Positions 23,687-33,557 of a DNA stretch of 64,000 nucleotides are shown piece by piece. Both the position numbers and the translations under genes were made by a program. Under the pieces are notes generated by a model. That model was not told where the DNA came from. It did no database searches and saw only the letters and a program-made list of their open reading frames with translations. The DNA comes from Bacteroidota bacterium (GTDB taxonomy: Bacteria; Bacteroidota; Bacteroidia; B-17B0; Aurantibacillaceae): the NCBI GenBank assembly GCA_018267655.1, contig JAFDYB010000086.1, positions 186,001 to 250,000 on the forward strand, written 5' to 3'. The first letter of the stretch is position 1. Each line of letters starts with the position of its first letter.

Positions 23687-25081
23687 TTATTTCATTTTTA
23701 AAAATGCAATTTCTTTATCGGTTAAAAAGCGCCATCTGCCCCGCGGCAAATCTTTTTTAGTAAGCCCGGCAAAAAGCACCCTATCAAGTTTAATTACTTC
23801 ATATCCTAAATGTTCAAACATACGGCGTACAATTCTATTTTTTCCGCTATGAATTTCGATACCAATTTCTTTTTTTCCTTCGCCAACGTATGCAATTTCA
23901 TCAGCTTTTATTAAGCCGTCCTCAAGTTCTATGCCATTATTAATTGCATCAAAATCTTCTTGCTTTAAGCCCCTGTTTAAAGTTACTTGATAAACCTTAC
24001 CAACATTAAATTTAGGATGGGTTAATTTTTTTGTTAATTCGCCATCGTTTGTAAAAAGTAAAAGACCTGTTGTATTTCTATCTAATCTACCAACCGGGTA
24101 AACACGCTCTTTGCAGGCACCTTCAATTAATTTCATTACTGTTCTGCGTTCACGCGGGTCATCAACTGTTGTAATGTAATCTTTAGGCTTATTAAGCAGT
24201 AAATATTTTTTACGTTCGGTTCTTACATTATCGTCTCCAAAAGTAACTCGATCGTTTAAACTGATTTTATAGCCCATTTCAGTAACAACTTCGCCATTAA
24301 CTTTTACTGCTCCGCTGGCAATTAACACGTCTGCTTCTCTTCGCGAAGAAACCCCGGCATTTGACAAATATTTATTTAAGCGAATAAGGTCGCTTTGCGG
24401 TTCGTTGCTTTTTTTTGAAAAGTCGTTACGCTGTCTTTTAAATCCGGTAGCTCTTTTTTTACTGTATTTGCCCCCTTCTCTATCTTCATTCGAATTGTAC
24501 GTATTTCTTGTGTCGCTATACTCTGTGTTCTCTTCGTTTTTAAACTTATTCCAAGCATCTTCTTTCTTTTTGAATTTAGTGCTGCTGTGTTTGTCGAAGT
24601 AGTGGTTGGGTTCGCGTTTAAGAGAATCGCTTTTATCTTTTCTAAATTTATTAAACGGACGTTCGCCGGAATTAAATTTATCGCTTTTAAATTCACGTTT
24701 GTCTTTCTCAAATTTATTAAAGGGTTTTGATCTTTTTGGTCGCTCACTTCTATCTGAAAAGTCTTTAAAATCGGTCTTTTTATAGGATGATGACTTGCCA
24801 GAGTATTTTTTTTCTCTGTCGCCACGATCAGCATATTTTTTTTCTCTATCGCCACGGTCAGCGTATTTTTTATCTGATTTTTTTATAAAATTATTGGGTT
24901 TTTCACTTCTCCTACGGTCATCTCTGTTACTTGATTTTTCGGTGTTTTTTTTATAGCGTGAGCTAGTTCCACCTTCTTCATTTCGTTTTGGTTTAAACGC
25001 CCTATCTGATTTTTGAAAAGATTTTCTTCTCTCACTTTTGCCCTCAAGACTTTTTGCTTCCTTTTTTCTATTAAATGCCAT
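23687..25081 (-). CDS. Pseudouridine synthase of the RluB/RsuA type with long basic N-terminal extension
   Basis: About 464 residues. The C-terminal half is a standard RsuA/RluB enzyme: an S4 RNA-binding domain (RLNKYLSNAGVSSRREADVL), KYLLLNKPKDYITTV, the catalytic Asp in GRLDRNTTGLLLFTND, and SGKNRIVRRMFEHLGYEVIK. It converts uridine to pseudouridine in ribosomal RNA. The N-terminal 220 residues are low complexity, rich in Lys, Arg, Asp and Ser, with repeated KKYADRGDRE units. They are probably a disordered RNA-binding arm. The ATG at 25081 is preferred over a TTG at 25096. The gene is monocistronic. Confidence 0.93.
   Translation of the reverse strand: MAFNRKKEAKSLEGKSERRKSFQKSDRAFKPKRNEEGGTSSRYKKNTEKSSNRDDRRRSEKPNNFIKKSDKKYADRGDREKKYADRGDREKKYSGKSSSYKKTDFKDFSDRSERPKRSKPFNKFEKDKREFKSDKFNSGERPFNKFRKDKSDSLKREPNHYFDKHSSTKFKKKEDAWNKFKNEENTEYSDTRNTYNSNEDREGGKYSKKRATGFKRQRNDFSKKSNEPQSDLIRLNKYLSNAGVSSRREADVLIASGAVKVNGEVVTEMGYKISLNDRVTFGDDNVRTERKKYLLLNKPKDYITTVDDPRERRTVMKLIEGACKERVYPVGRLDRNTTGLLLFTNDGELTKKLTHPKFNVGKVYQVTLNRGLKQEDFDAINNGIELEDGLIKADEIAYVGEGKKEIGIEIHSGKNRIVRRMFEHLGYEVIKLDRVLFAGLTKKDLPRGRWRFLTDKEIAFLKMK
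24803..24862 (-). repeat. Two 30-bp tandem repeats in the pseudouridine synthase gene
   Basis: The units 24803-24832 and 24833-24862 differ at three positions, and a third copy begins at 24863. They encode the repeated 10-residue unit KKYADRGDRE. The 30-nt length keeps the frame, so copy number can vary without breaking the protein. Confidence 0.8.
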
Positions 25082-25241
25082 TGCCCTAATATACAATTAA
25101 TTTTGCTCGCTATTTTCCCTATTATAAAAATACCTTGCGTATCTCCATCTAATAAAAGATTACATTTTTTTGTGCAAGCCTGTTTTAAGATGAGATAAAA
25201 TAATTTAGAATTTTCAGACTACAATATATCTAAAACTGGTA

Positions 25242-30488: not shown

Positions 30489-30845
30489 TTAACTTAAATG
30501 TTCAATTAGTTGGGTTATTTCAACAGGCTTTGTAATTAGTGCTACTAGCGCAATTCCTGAAATTTGGTGTAAAGTTGTTTCAAAAGCATTACCCGTAGTA
30601 AATATTATTTTAGTTTGAATGTTGTTTTTTCGTAATTCTTTAGCTGCGTTAATTCCACAAGAGTTGTTTTTCAAACGCACGTCCATAACAATATATTTGG
30701 GATTAAAATCTAGTACCGTCTTCATTACATCATTTCCATCTGATATTTGGGTTACTTTATAGCCCATTTTTTCTAACTGTAAACATAGGGCTTTAGCTAT
30801 AAGCAACTCATCTTCCACTATTAATATTTTAGTTTCTGTATTCAA
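30489..30845 (-). CDS. Single-domain response regulator (receiver)
   Basis: A 118-residue receiver domain with no output domain: the acidic pocket IVEDELLIAKAL, the phosphoacceptor Asp in YIVMDVRLKNNSCG, the Thr of IIFTTGNA and the Lys of ALITKPVE. Its ATG overlaps the stop of the upstream sensor kinase gene (ATGA-type overlap at 30842-30845), so the pair is translationally coupled. It probably passes the phosphate on or acts by protein contact. The target is unknown. Confidence 0.93.
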   Translation of the reverse strand: MNTETKILIVEDELLIAKALCLQLEKMGYKVTQISDGNDVMKTVLDFNPKYIVMDVRLKNNSCGINAAKELRKNNIQTKIIFTTGNAFETTLHQISGIALVALITKPVEITQLIEHLS

Positions 30846-32248
30846 AACTTAGGCAGTGATATTACGTACTTTGGAGGTATTCTTTCTGTTAGTTTAATTG
30901 TACCGTCTAACTGTTTAACAAAAGTGTGAATTAAAGTAAGCCCTGTTGAAGTTGAATTATCAAAATCTATATTTTCAGGAAAAGATCCTGCACAGTCGCA
31001 ATAGCTAATGGTGGTAGCACTTTCATTTAATGCAAAACGCATAGTTATTTTTCCTTTTTTTGCATTGTTATAAGAGTGTTTAAATGAATTTGTCATTAAT
31101 TCATTTATTATTAATCCTATGGGCATAGCTTGTGAAATGTCAAGTTTTATTTCATCTCCGGATAATTCTAAAATAAAATTAGAGTCAATTTTCAGTAAAT
31201 CAAAAAGCTCGCAAATATATTTGTTTAGGTTAATGCTGCTGAGTAAAGTGCTTTTGTAAAAAAGTTCATGTATAAGTGCGGCTGATTTTATTCGTTTTAT
31301 ACTTTGTTTTAATGCAGCTTTTGCTTCGTTATTTTCAATATTTAATTCCTGTAATTGAAGAATGCTTGAAATTATGGTTAAGTTGTTTTTTATGCGATGA
31401 TGTATTTCAGATAAAAGTGATTCTTTTTCTTTTAAAGTTTCTTTTAAAGAATTTTCGTTAAGTATGCGTTTGGTTATATTTTTTGAAAAAATATTTATGC
31501 CGGAAATTTCGTTGTTTGAATTTAATATAGGGTGATAATTTGACTCAAAATAAACAGTTGAAAAACCTGCGGGTTCAAAAGCTTCAATTTCAGAATGTAT
31601 TTTGCCTTGTAAAACTTTTATGTAAATAGCTGTTAAGTGCTTGTGTTTTGCGGGATCGATAACATCTAAAATAGGCATACCAAAAATTGGTTCAATTGCA
31701 TAACCTAATTTTACAGCTTTAATAAATGACTTATTAAATTCCATAAGCTTAAAGTCTTTATCAATAGAGCAAATATAATCGCTCGTATTATTAAAAATTG
31801 CTTTTAATTTTTCGGTACTGTCAATTAATTTTGCTTCGTTTAACTTATGCGCTGTAATATCTTCTGAAATAAACAACAAATTGGTTATGGTATTATTGTG
31901 TTGCTTAATTGCCGAAATTGATGTTTTATACCATGCTTTACCTTGTGAGTTATTGCCGGAAGCACCCATTAATTCAAAAGACAAAGGCTTACCGGTTTTT
32001 AAAACTTCTTGAATTTTGGTTTTATACAAATCAACGTATTCGGGTGATATAAAGGTGAAAATTTGATTCCCAATAACATTAGCCTCGGTATAACCGGGTT
32101 GATATTGATTGATATATATTATTTTAAGATCTAAATCGGCAACATATAAAATATGCGGTATAGTTTCGGTAAGCGCTTTAAAAAACCTTGAATTTGTTTC
32201 TTGAAAAGAAAAATTCGATTTGGGAATATTAAAATTATCAAATGTCAA
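30842..32248 (-). CDS. PAS-domain sensor histidine kinase (HisKA_2 type)
   Basis: A 468-residue soluble kinase. Two PAS domains (about 22-140 and 145-260; HILYVADLDLKIIYINQY, and DYICSIDKDFKLMEFNKSF) are followed by a HisKA_2 phosphoacceptor (SEIHHRIKNNLTIISSILQL) and an HATPase_c domain (LIINELMTNSFKHSYNNAK). There is no membrane segment, so it senses a cytoplasmic signal; no haem- or flavin-binding motif could be confirmed. The start is a TTG at 32248; a stop lies two codons upstream and no ATG follows until residue 98. Its promoter is built from 14-bp tandem repeats. It is coupled to the receiver gene downstream. Confidence 0.88.
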   Translation of the reverse strand: MTFDNFNIPKSNFSFQETNSRFFKALTETIPHILYVADLDLKIIYINQYQPGYTEANVIGNQIFTFISPEYVDLYKTKIQEVLKTGKPLSFELMGASGNNSQGKAWYKTSISAIKQHNNTITNLLFISEDITAHKLNEAKLIDSTEKLKAIFNNTSDYICSIDKDFKLMEFNKSFIKAVKLGYAIEPIFGMPILDVIDPAKHKHLTAIYIKVLQGKIHSEIEAFEPAGFSTVYFESNYHPILNSNNEISGINIFSKNITKRILNENSLKETLKEKESLLSEIHHRIKNNLTIISSILQLQELNIENNEAKAALKQSIKRIKSAALIHELFYKSTLLSSINLNKYICELFDLLKIDSNFILELSGDEIKLDISQAMPIGLIINELMTNSFKHSYNNAKKGKITMRFALNESATTISYCDCAGSFPENIDFDNSTSTGLTLIHTFVKQLDGTIKLTERIPPKYVISLPKF

Positions 32249-32297
32249 TAATCAAAAATACATAATCAAAAATACATAATCAAAAATACATAATCAA
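32248..32297 (-). repeat. 14-bp tandem repeats forming the sensor kinase promoter
   Basis: Three perfect copies of ATAATCAAAAATAC (32248, 32262, 32276) plus 8 bases of a fourth. On the minus strand each copy carries TATTTTTG, a perfect TAnnTTTG -7 box. The TTTG of one copy is exactly 20 nt from the -7 box two copies downstream, so the repeats alone build a consensus promoter. The last box ends 4 nt before the TTG start. Confidence 0.75.
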
Positions 32298-32375
32298 TTT
32301 TAATTTTTAAAGATGTTCCATGATTTTAACACAAAGGGTACAGATTGGTTTGAAGACATACATACACATTAAAAT

Positions 32376-32429
32376 AGCTAACCAAAGATGACTAAATTTA
32401 AAACCATATAAAACCATCTTTGATTAGCT
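32376..32429 (-). terminator. Long inverted repeat downstream of recA
   Basis: Arms AGCTAACCAAAGATG (32376-32390) and CATCTTTGATTAGCT (32415-32429) pair at 14 of 15 positions, with a 24-nt loop. On the minus strand, the recA direction, it is followed by TATTTTAATG. A second, smaller inverted repeat, ACTAAATA / TATTTAGT, lies at 32451-32476, next to the recA stop. They are probable recA transcript ends, though the T runs are weak. Confidence 0.45.
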
Positions 32430-32489: not shown

Positions 32490-33557
32490 TTAATCAGCTT
32501 GCTCTACTTCAGAATTTAAAATTTCTTTTATTTTAAATTCTATTTCCTCTGCTAAATCGGTATTCTCAATAAATAAATTTTTTACTGCCTCTTTACCTTG
32601 CCCAAGTTTAGTATCCTCATAACTAAACCAAGAGCCTGCTTTTTTAATTACTCCCTTTTCAACGCCTATATCAATTATTTCTCCAACCTTACTAATACCC
32701 TCTCCAAAAACAATATCAAACTCAGCTTGACGGAATGGAGGCGCTACTTTATTTTTTATCACTTTTACTCTAACACGATTACCGGTAACAAGCTCTCCTT
32801 CTTTTATTTGGCTAATGCGGCGAATATCTAACCTTACAGAAGCGTAAAATTTTAAAGCATTACCACCTGTAGTTGTTTCAGGATTACCAAACATTATTCC
32901 GATTTTTTCGCGTAGCTGGTTAATAAAGATACAGCAACAGCCTGTTCTATTAATAGTTGCTGTTAATTTACGCAAAGCTTGACTCATTAAACGAGCTTGC
33001 AAGCCCATTTTACTTTCGCCCATTTCACCTTCTATTTCGGCTTTTGGGGTGAGCGCAGCAACTGAGTCAATAACAATTAAATCAACTGCACCGCTCCTTA
33101 TTAAATTATCAGCTATTTCAAGGCCTTGTTCTCCGTTATCGGGTTGAGAGATTAATAAACTTTGGGTATCAACGCCTAATTTTTCGGCATAAAACCGGTC
33201 AAAAGCATGTTCTGCATCTATAATAGCGGCAATACCGCCATTTTTTTGAACGTTCGCTATAGCATGTATTGCTAAAGTTGTTTTACCTGAACTTTCAGGG
33301 CCATAAATTTCTACAATACGTCCCTTAGGTAAACCACCAATGCCTAAGGCTATATCCAAGCCAAAAGAGCCGGTACTAATAGCTTCCATTGATTCAACTT
33401 TTGCATCACCAAGCCTCATTATGCTTCCTTTGCCATAAGTTTTTTCTAATTTATCGAGTGTTAACTGTAAAGCTTTTAATTTTTCAGTATTTACCGATTT
33501 TTTGTTTGAAGAGTTTTCGATTTCATCTAATACTTCTTCAGGATTTTTTCTTGCCAT
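32490..33557 (-). CDS. recA: Recombinase RecA
   Basis: A 355-residue ATP-dependent strand-exchange protein for homologous recombination and the SOS response. It has the Walker [20 protein letters not shown], Walker [11 protein letters not shown], the Gln switch [19 protein letters not shown], and [15 protein letters not shown]. The N-terminal 20 residues are Asn/Lys/Ser-rich. The ATG at 33557 precedes [11 protein letters not shown]-type sequence. The leader is about 85 nt from the TACCTTTG promoter box, with a 16-bp palindrome just upstream that may be an SOS operator. The gene is monocistronic. Confidence 0.98.

Follow-up and report, generated by a model that had tools for sequence, protein, structure and literature searches.

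A perfect 14-bp tandem array with a repeated -7-like box, the probable promoter of a sensor kinase/response regulator operon in a Bacteroidota genome

Upstream of hmw1A of Haemophilus influenzae, 13-24 copies of a 7-bp unit lie between two predicted promoter regions and more units go with lower expression (PMC8262952). Perfect direct repeats of the heptamer TAACTGA adjoin start codons in Beggiatoaceae, Cyanobacteria and five Bacteroidetes; in the main species each genome has numerous sets, and the repeats are proposed to act on RNA (PMC4679880). Variable promoter DNA also governs CmrRST, a kinase/regulator system of Clostridioides difficile which switches by site-specific inversion and not by repeat number (PMC8844915). 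The ordinary sigma-A promoters of Bacteroidota carry the box TAnnTTTG (PMC9723704, PMC7366714). In F. psychrophilum, this box spans positions -12 to -5 relative to the transcription start, with a median leader of 24 bp and 5.5% of the mRNAs leaderless (PMC9723704). In B. thetaiotaomicron, most mRNAs have leaders of 23 nt, and two sensor kinases are listed among those with leaders shorter than 10 nt; the same study reports that no -33 element was identifiable in F. johnsoniae (PMC7366714). The open-licence literature yielded no report of tandem repeats holding a TAnnTTTG box or of a phase-variable kinase whose promoter contains tandem repeats.

The locus described here belongs to the low-G+C genome of a Bacteroidota bacterium (GCA_018267655.1; 3.41 Mb in 101 contigs) and was analysed within a stretch of 64,000 nucleotides of contig C86 (hereinafter, the window). 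A 14-bp tandem repeat had been predicted ahead of a sensor kinase gene, and Tandem Repeats Finder (TRF) confirms it and its location, at 32248-32297 (period 14, 3.6 copies, 100% matches, score 100). The unit reported by TRF is ATAATCAAAAATAC; the minus-strand unit, on the strand of the kinase gene, is TATTTTTGATTATG. The array is more than a chance product because the best of 60 simulated windows (order-3 Markov, 64 kb each) scored 75, so that none reached 100. Across 624 kb of the genome (the window and 28 further stretches), four arrays score at least 80, and the one at 32248-32297 is the only non-coding array among them; a coding region of contig C83 contains a 12-bp repeat in 6.5 perfect copies (L155:3281-3358). 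Elsewhere in the window, TRF finds 2.4 copies of a 30-bp repeat (24804-24875) inside the frame 23687-25096, which contains S4 and pseudouridine synthase domains and in which the repeat encodes a 10-residue repeat of the N-terminal part.

The 14-bp array was detected in none of the 40 other genomes searched, 24 of which belong to the same genus. A dispersed 14-bp repeat family was rejected given that only two arrays exist genome-wide, and membership in the TAACTGA-type repeat family was rejected on the basis of the unit itself. A search with 18-mers, at most 3 mismatches being allowed, gave 34 matches, arrays included, versus 35 in the backward control. Within the genus, outside the two copies in its own genome and the copies of the insertion sequence end discussed below, the leader of the kinase gene matches only short AT-rich pieces, the best with E 1.2e-5 over 27-32 bp; at E 0.01, any leader match at all is seen in 21 of 40 genomes, the own genome counted. 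A search of a plasmid collection gave no match.

On the minus strand, the array leads into a gene for a sensor kinase of 468 aa that begins with TTG (30842..32248; Pfam domains PAS_4, PAS, HisKA_2 and HATPase) and then, with a 4-bp overlap, into a gene for a single-domain response regulator of 118 aa (30489..30845; Pfam). Homologues of the kinase with 43-46% identity are present, at E 1e-60, in two of the 39 other genomes of the genus (G053 and G012), and in both of these a response regulator adjoins the kinase homologue; a collection of genome contigs searched for further relatives gave one distant match only. The kinase frame is intact, and the motifs EIHHRIKNN and ELMxNS(F/I)KHS are conserved with the two homologues. 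The TTG at 32248, the sole common start codon that opens the frame ahead of the PAS domain, is very likely the true start, because all three frames through the array hit TGA and the N-terminal M-T-x-D-N of the kinase aligns with an ATG of each homologue: in G012 this opens M-R-E-D, and in G053 it is the second ATG in frame and opens M-T-N-D-N. A reading-frame switch through the array was rejected on account of the same TGA codons, which occur in every frame within it.

On the strand of the kinase gene, every full unit contains the -7-like box TATTTTTG, in line with the original prediction. The three boxes, all read on the minus strand, start 40, 26 and 12 nt before the TTG (box 1, 32281..32288; box 2, 32267..32274; box 3, 32253..32260), and the last one ends 4 nt before the TTG, likewise as predicted. 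The significance of this word was assessed in the 150 bp upstream of 192 genes, taken as ATG frames of at least 100 aa preceded by 120 bp or more of non-coding DNA in the window and the 28 other stretches; the first ATG was set as the start of each, so that some starts are wrong and genes starting with TTG or GTG, the kinase included, are misplaced. Among the 256 words of the form TAnnNNNN, TAnnTTTG ranks first (65 occurrences versus 22.5 expected from base composition). It starts at -60 to -10 in 42 of the 192 genes (expectation, 0.042 per gene), most often between -30 and -11; three starts fall at -12 and not one at -11 to -8, a distribution that fits the box map of F. psychrophilum (PMC9723704). 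In a smaller sample of 74 upstream regions, the word is also common on the opposite strand, with 18 occurrences; the gene strand holds 24, and shuffles of the gene-strand sequence 8.75. Divergent genes would account for some of the opposite-strand occurrences.

The array thus has the word TAnnTTTG at the distance from the gene that is typical of this genome, at -12, -26 and -40. Because this is the most enriched upstream word and is placed like a -7 box, the array is very probably the promoter of the kinase and response regulator genes, with the -7 box triplicated. Such multiplicity is rare: two boxes at -60 to -10 occur in one of the 192 ATG genes, and three in none. A sigma-70 promoter scan returned nothing useful. 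Boxes 1 and 2, with implied leaders of ~28 and ~14 nt, appear the more natural ones because typical leaders in B. thetaiotaomicron and F. psychrophilum are ~23-24 nt long, whereas box 3 would start the RNA at the TTG itself, so that leaderless translation from UUG would be needed. TTG starts and such short leaders are the uncommon case.

The original prediction further held that the TTTG of one unit lies 20 nt from the -7 box two units on, three units thereby making a full consensus promoter. A TTTG of the distal unit does precede box 3 with this gap, but the arrangement applies to one of the three boxes only, the corresponding place being occupied by ATTG in front of box 2 and by CTTT in front of box 1. 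Moreover, the 20-nt gap is not independent evidence because it follows arithmetically from the period of 14 bp and the box length of 8 bp (2x14-8). Among 43 boxes of the genome, none has TTTG 19-21 bp upstream (0.8 expected) and two have TTG there (2.2 expected). The -33 TTTG is thus no visible feature of the promoters of this genome, and the notion of a full consensus promoter is weak and contributes little.

The minus-strand order of features is recA, a hairpin, an IS3-like right end, the array, the kinase gene and the response regulator gene. The frame at 32490..33557 (minus strand), 82-89% identical to its best match in each of 34 other genomes, is one that we take to be recA from its similarity across the genus. 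In a survey of up to 1.5 kb downstream of recA at 30 loci (from 36 recA matches; two of the 30 loci have less than 1.5 kb downstream), the kinase gene was found behind recA in its own genome only. The strong hairpin at 32376..32429 (minus strand; -19.8 kcal/mol, z -4.87), located between recA and the kinase leader, is likely the recA terminator; a pattern scan for U-run terminators did not call it. The hairpin parts recA from the leader, and hence the kinase gene probably needs a promoter of its own.

The adjacent segment, 32309..32362 (minus strand), is a remnant of the right end of the insertion sequence, recognized by its similarity (66-76 bp, 83-87% identity) to copies on contigs C29, C41 and C69. 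At C41 and C45, such ends are flanked by transposase reading frames (HTH_Tnp_1; rve), and the segment shares, for the right end only, the terminal repeat common to copies with orfA/orfB transposase genes. The family is presumably IS3, judging by two overlapping frames, the rve core and TG...CA ends. Contig C29 contains a MITE-like element of ~0.2 kb (G000:C29:100781-101013; L095, L100) that retains the two ends of the IS3-like element together with the first orfA codons, the interior being deleted.

The sole natural variation in unit number, in a comparison that covers one genome of the species, comes from a second copy of the leader on contig C93. The segment 32204..32311 (minus strand), made up of the leader and the initial ~15 codons of the kinase gene, is shared with G000:C93:1772-1865, as seen from a similarity search and from sequence reading: 32204-32280 aligns with G000:C93:1772-1848 (77 bp, 96%, E 5.7e-30), and a further 14 identical bases, read from the sequences, are present upstream at 32298-32311. 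The C93 copy has two units, with boxes at -12 and -26, versus three full units in the window, and its units contain one substitution, ATG to GTG. Unit number is thus able to differ between leader copies while the proximal boxes keep their place. On C93, the leader precedes a short unrelated frame (L036:1604-1816, 71 aa) that starts with the first 15 codons of the kinase and has no significant Pfam match. It is probably a gene fragment because its tail has weak similarity to portions of longer frames (434-789 aa) in five of the 40 other genomes searched. The N-terminus of the kinase in the window resembles that of its homologues, as might be expected if the copying went from the kinase gene to C93. 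Also near the C93 leader copy is a putative Fic-like reading frame (L036:586-1383) with the motif HPFSDGNGRSAR. The IS3-like end, the rarity of the kinase in the genus and the C93 copy together suggest that the kinase leader is young and rearranged.

Taking these observations together, we lean towards the view that the array serves as the operon's promoter region, its stretch with the -7 box having been tandemly duplicated, with up to three equivalent starts and mild tuning instead of a switch. Under this scenario, a 14-bp stretch containing the box would have been duplicated upstream of the kinase/response regulator operon, presumably through slippage, and RNA polymerase would begin transcription at two or three positions spaced by 14 bp. 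Boxes 1 and 2 would provide translatable RNA and box 3 an RNA beginning at UUG, while unit number may tune the output mildly via the count of boxes and the upstream context. Such a graded effect is plausible. The reading of the repeat as a promoter repeat survives in that the unit holds the -7 word of the genome at the right distance and unit number differs between C86 (three full units) and C93 (two); the parts of it that gain no support are the -33 element and the on/off shift. Gain or loss of units had been expected to shift or remove the promoter; the array, however, is periodic, so that only a distal box is added or removed, and as long as two units remain, the proximal boxes keep their positions of -12 and -26. 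Promoter spacing is therefore the same with two or three units, and a reading-frame effect is not expected from an array that closes all three frames. The case for an on/off switch is weak, the anatomy of the array apparently not suggesting one. A contingency switch proper, with slippage within a strain changing unit number and driving kinase output reversibly up or down, would be in line with the perfect identity of the units, which favours slippage, with the existence of the two-unit copy and with the behaviour of promoter repeats at hmw1A (PMC8262952). We nonetheless regard it as quite improbable: there are only 3.6 units, periodicity fixes the two proximal boxes, the two-unit copy sits at another locus, and the genome has no -33 signal for a unit change to make or break.

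Another interpretation is that the array is a tandem duplication that arose incidentally in AT-rich intergenic DNA remaining after the insertion sequence decayed, transcription starting elsewhere. The IS3-like right end lies next to the array, BLAST extends the similarity to the insertion sequence into the array at 81%, and the stretch upstream of the array also matches the right end of the MITE-like derivative on C29. By a hand estimate from word counts, ~3-6% of random 14-bp units would hold a box in one orientation, so that the duplication may have come to lie near a gene by coincidence. The similarity between insertion sequence and array, on which an origin of the repeat unit from the insertion sequence end would rest, is, however, weak by comparison with 1000 dinucleotide shuffles, 82-124 of which were as good for the insertion sequence and 5-7 for the MITE, and the boxes occupy the promoter position of this genome in the correct orientation; we consider this interpretation unlikely. 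The repeat might instead be a translational device in which ribosomes reinitiate at the kinase UUG from a three-codon upstream frame, AUG-UAU-UUU-UGA. These MYF frames are found at -43, -29 and -15, the last being in frame and ending 3 nt before the TTG, and the corresponding codon on C93, GTG, is still a start codon. Yet the mini-frames follow from the unit sequence, conservation is judged from two copies only, and the start implied by box 2 would coincide with or adjoin the AUG of the last unit, all of which leaves reinitiation very unlikely. It is just as unlikely that each unit would be a self-contained cassette comprising a -7 box, an RNA starting at the AUG of the next unit and an MYF frame that ends before the following start, the whole forming a stacked rheostat whose leader was copied with 15 codons to a second gene; if this were true, added units would stack promoter-plus-minigene modules and set the dose of the kinase without moving the proximal elements.

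If the boxes of the triplicated promoter that we favour are active, the locus is a natural test case for the number of -7 boxes that a promoter can use in Bacteroidota, a phylum in which the -33 element is doubtful. More generally, periodicity in a promoter array does not entail an on/off switch, inasmuch as the proximal boxes keep their place regardless of unit number. As at hmw1A, a single gene is preceded by a promoter region with short tandem repeats, the number of which could tune output; unlike hmw1A, the unit itself holds the -7 box, and 3.6 copies are seen in a single genome. As with the TAACTGA heptamers, perfect direct repeats adjoin a start codon, but the unit and its length are different and the genome has two such leaders. 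The resemblance to CmrRST lies in a kinase/regulator system with variable promoter DNA, the difference in the mode of variation. The ordinary sigma-A promoters have the same box at the same distance from the gene; in the host genome, these normally have one box per gene, whereas the array has three, 14 bp apart.
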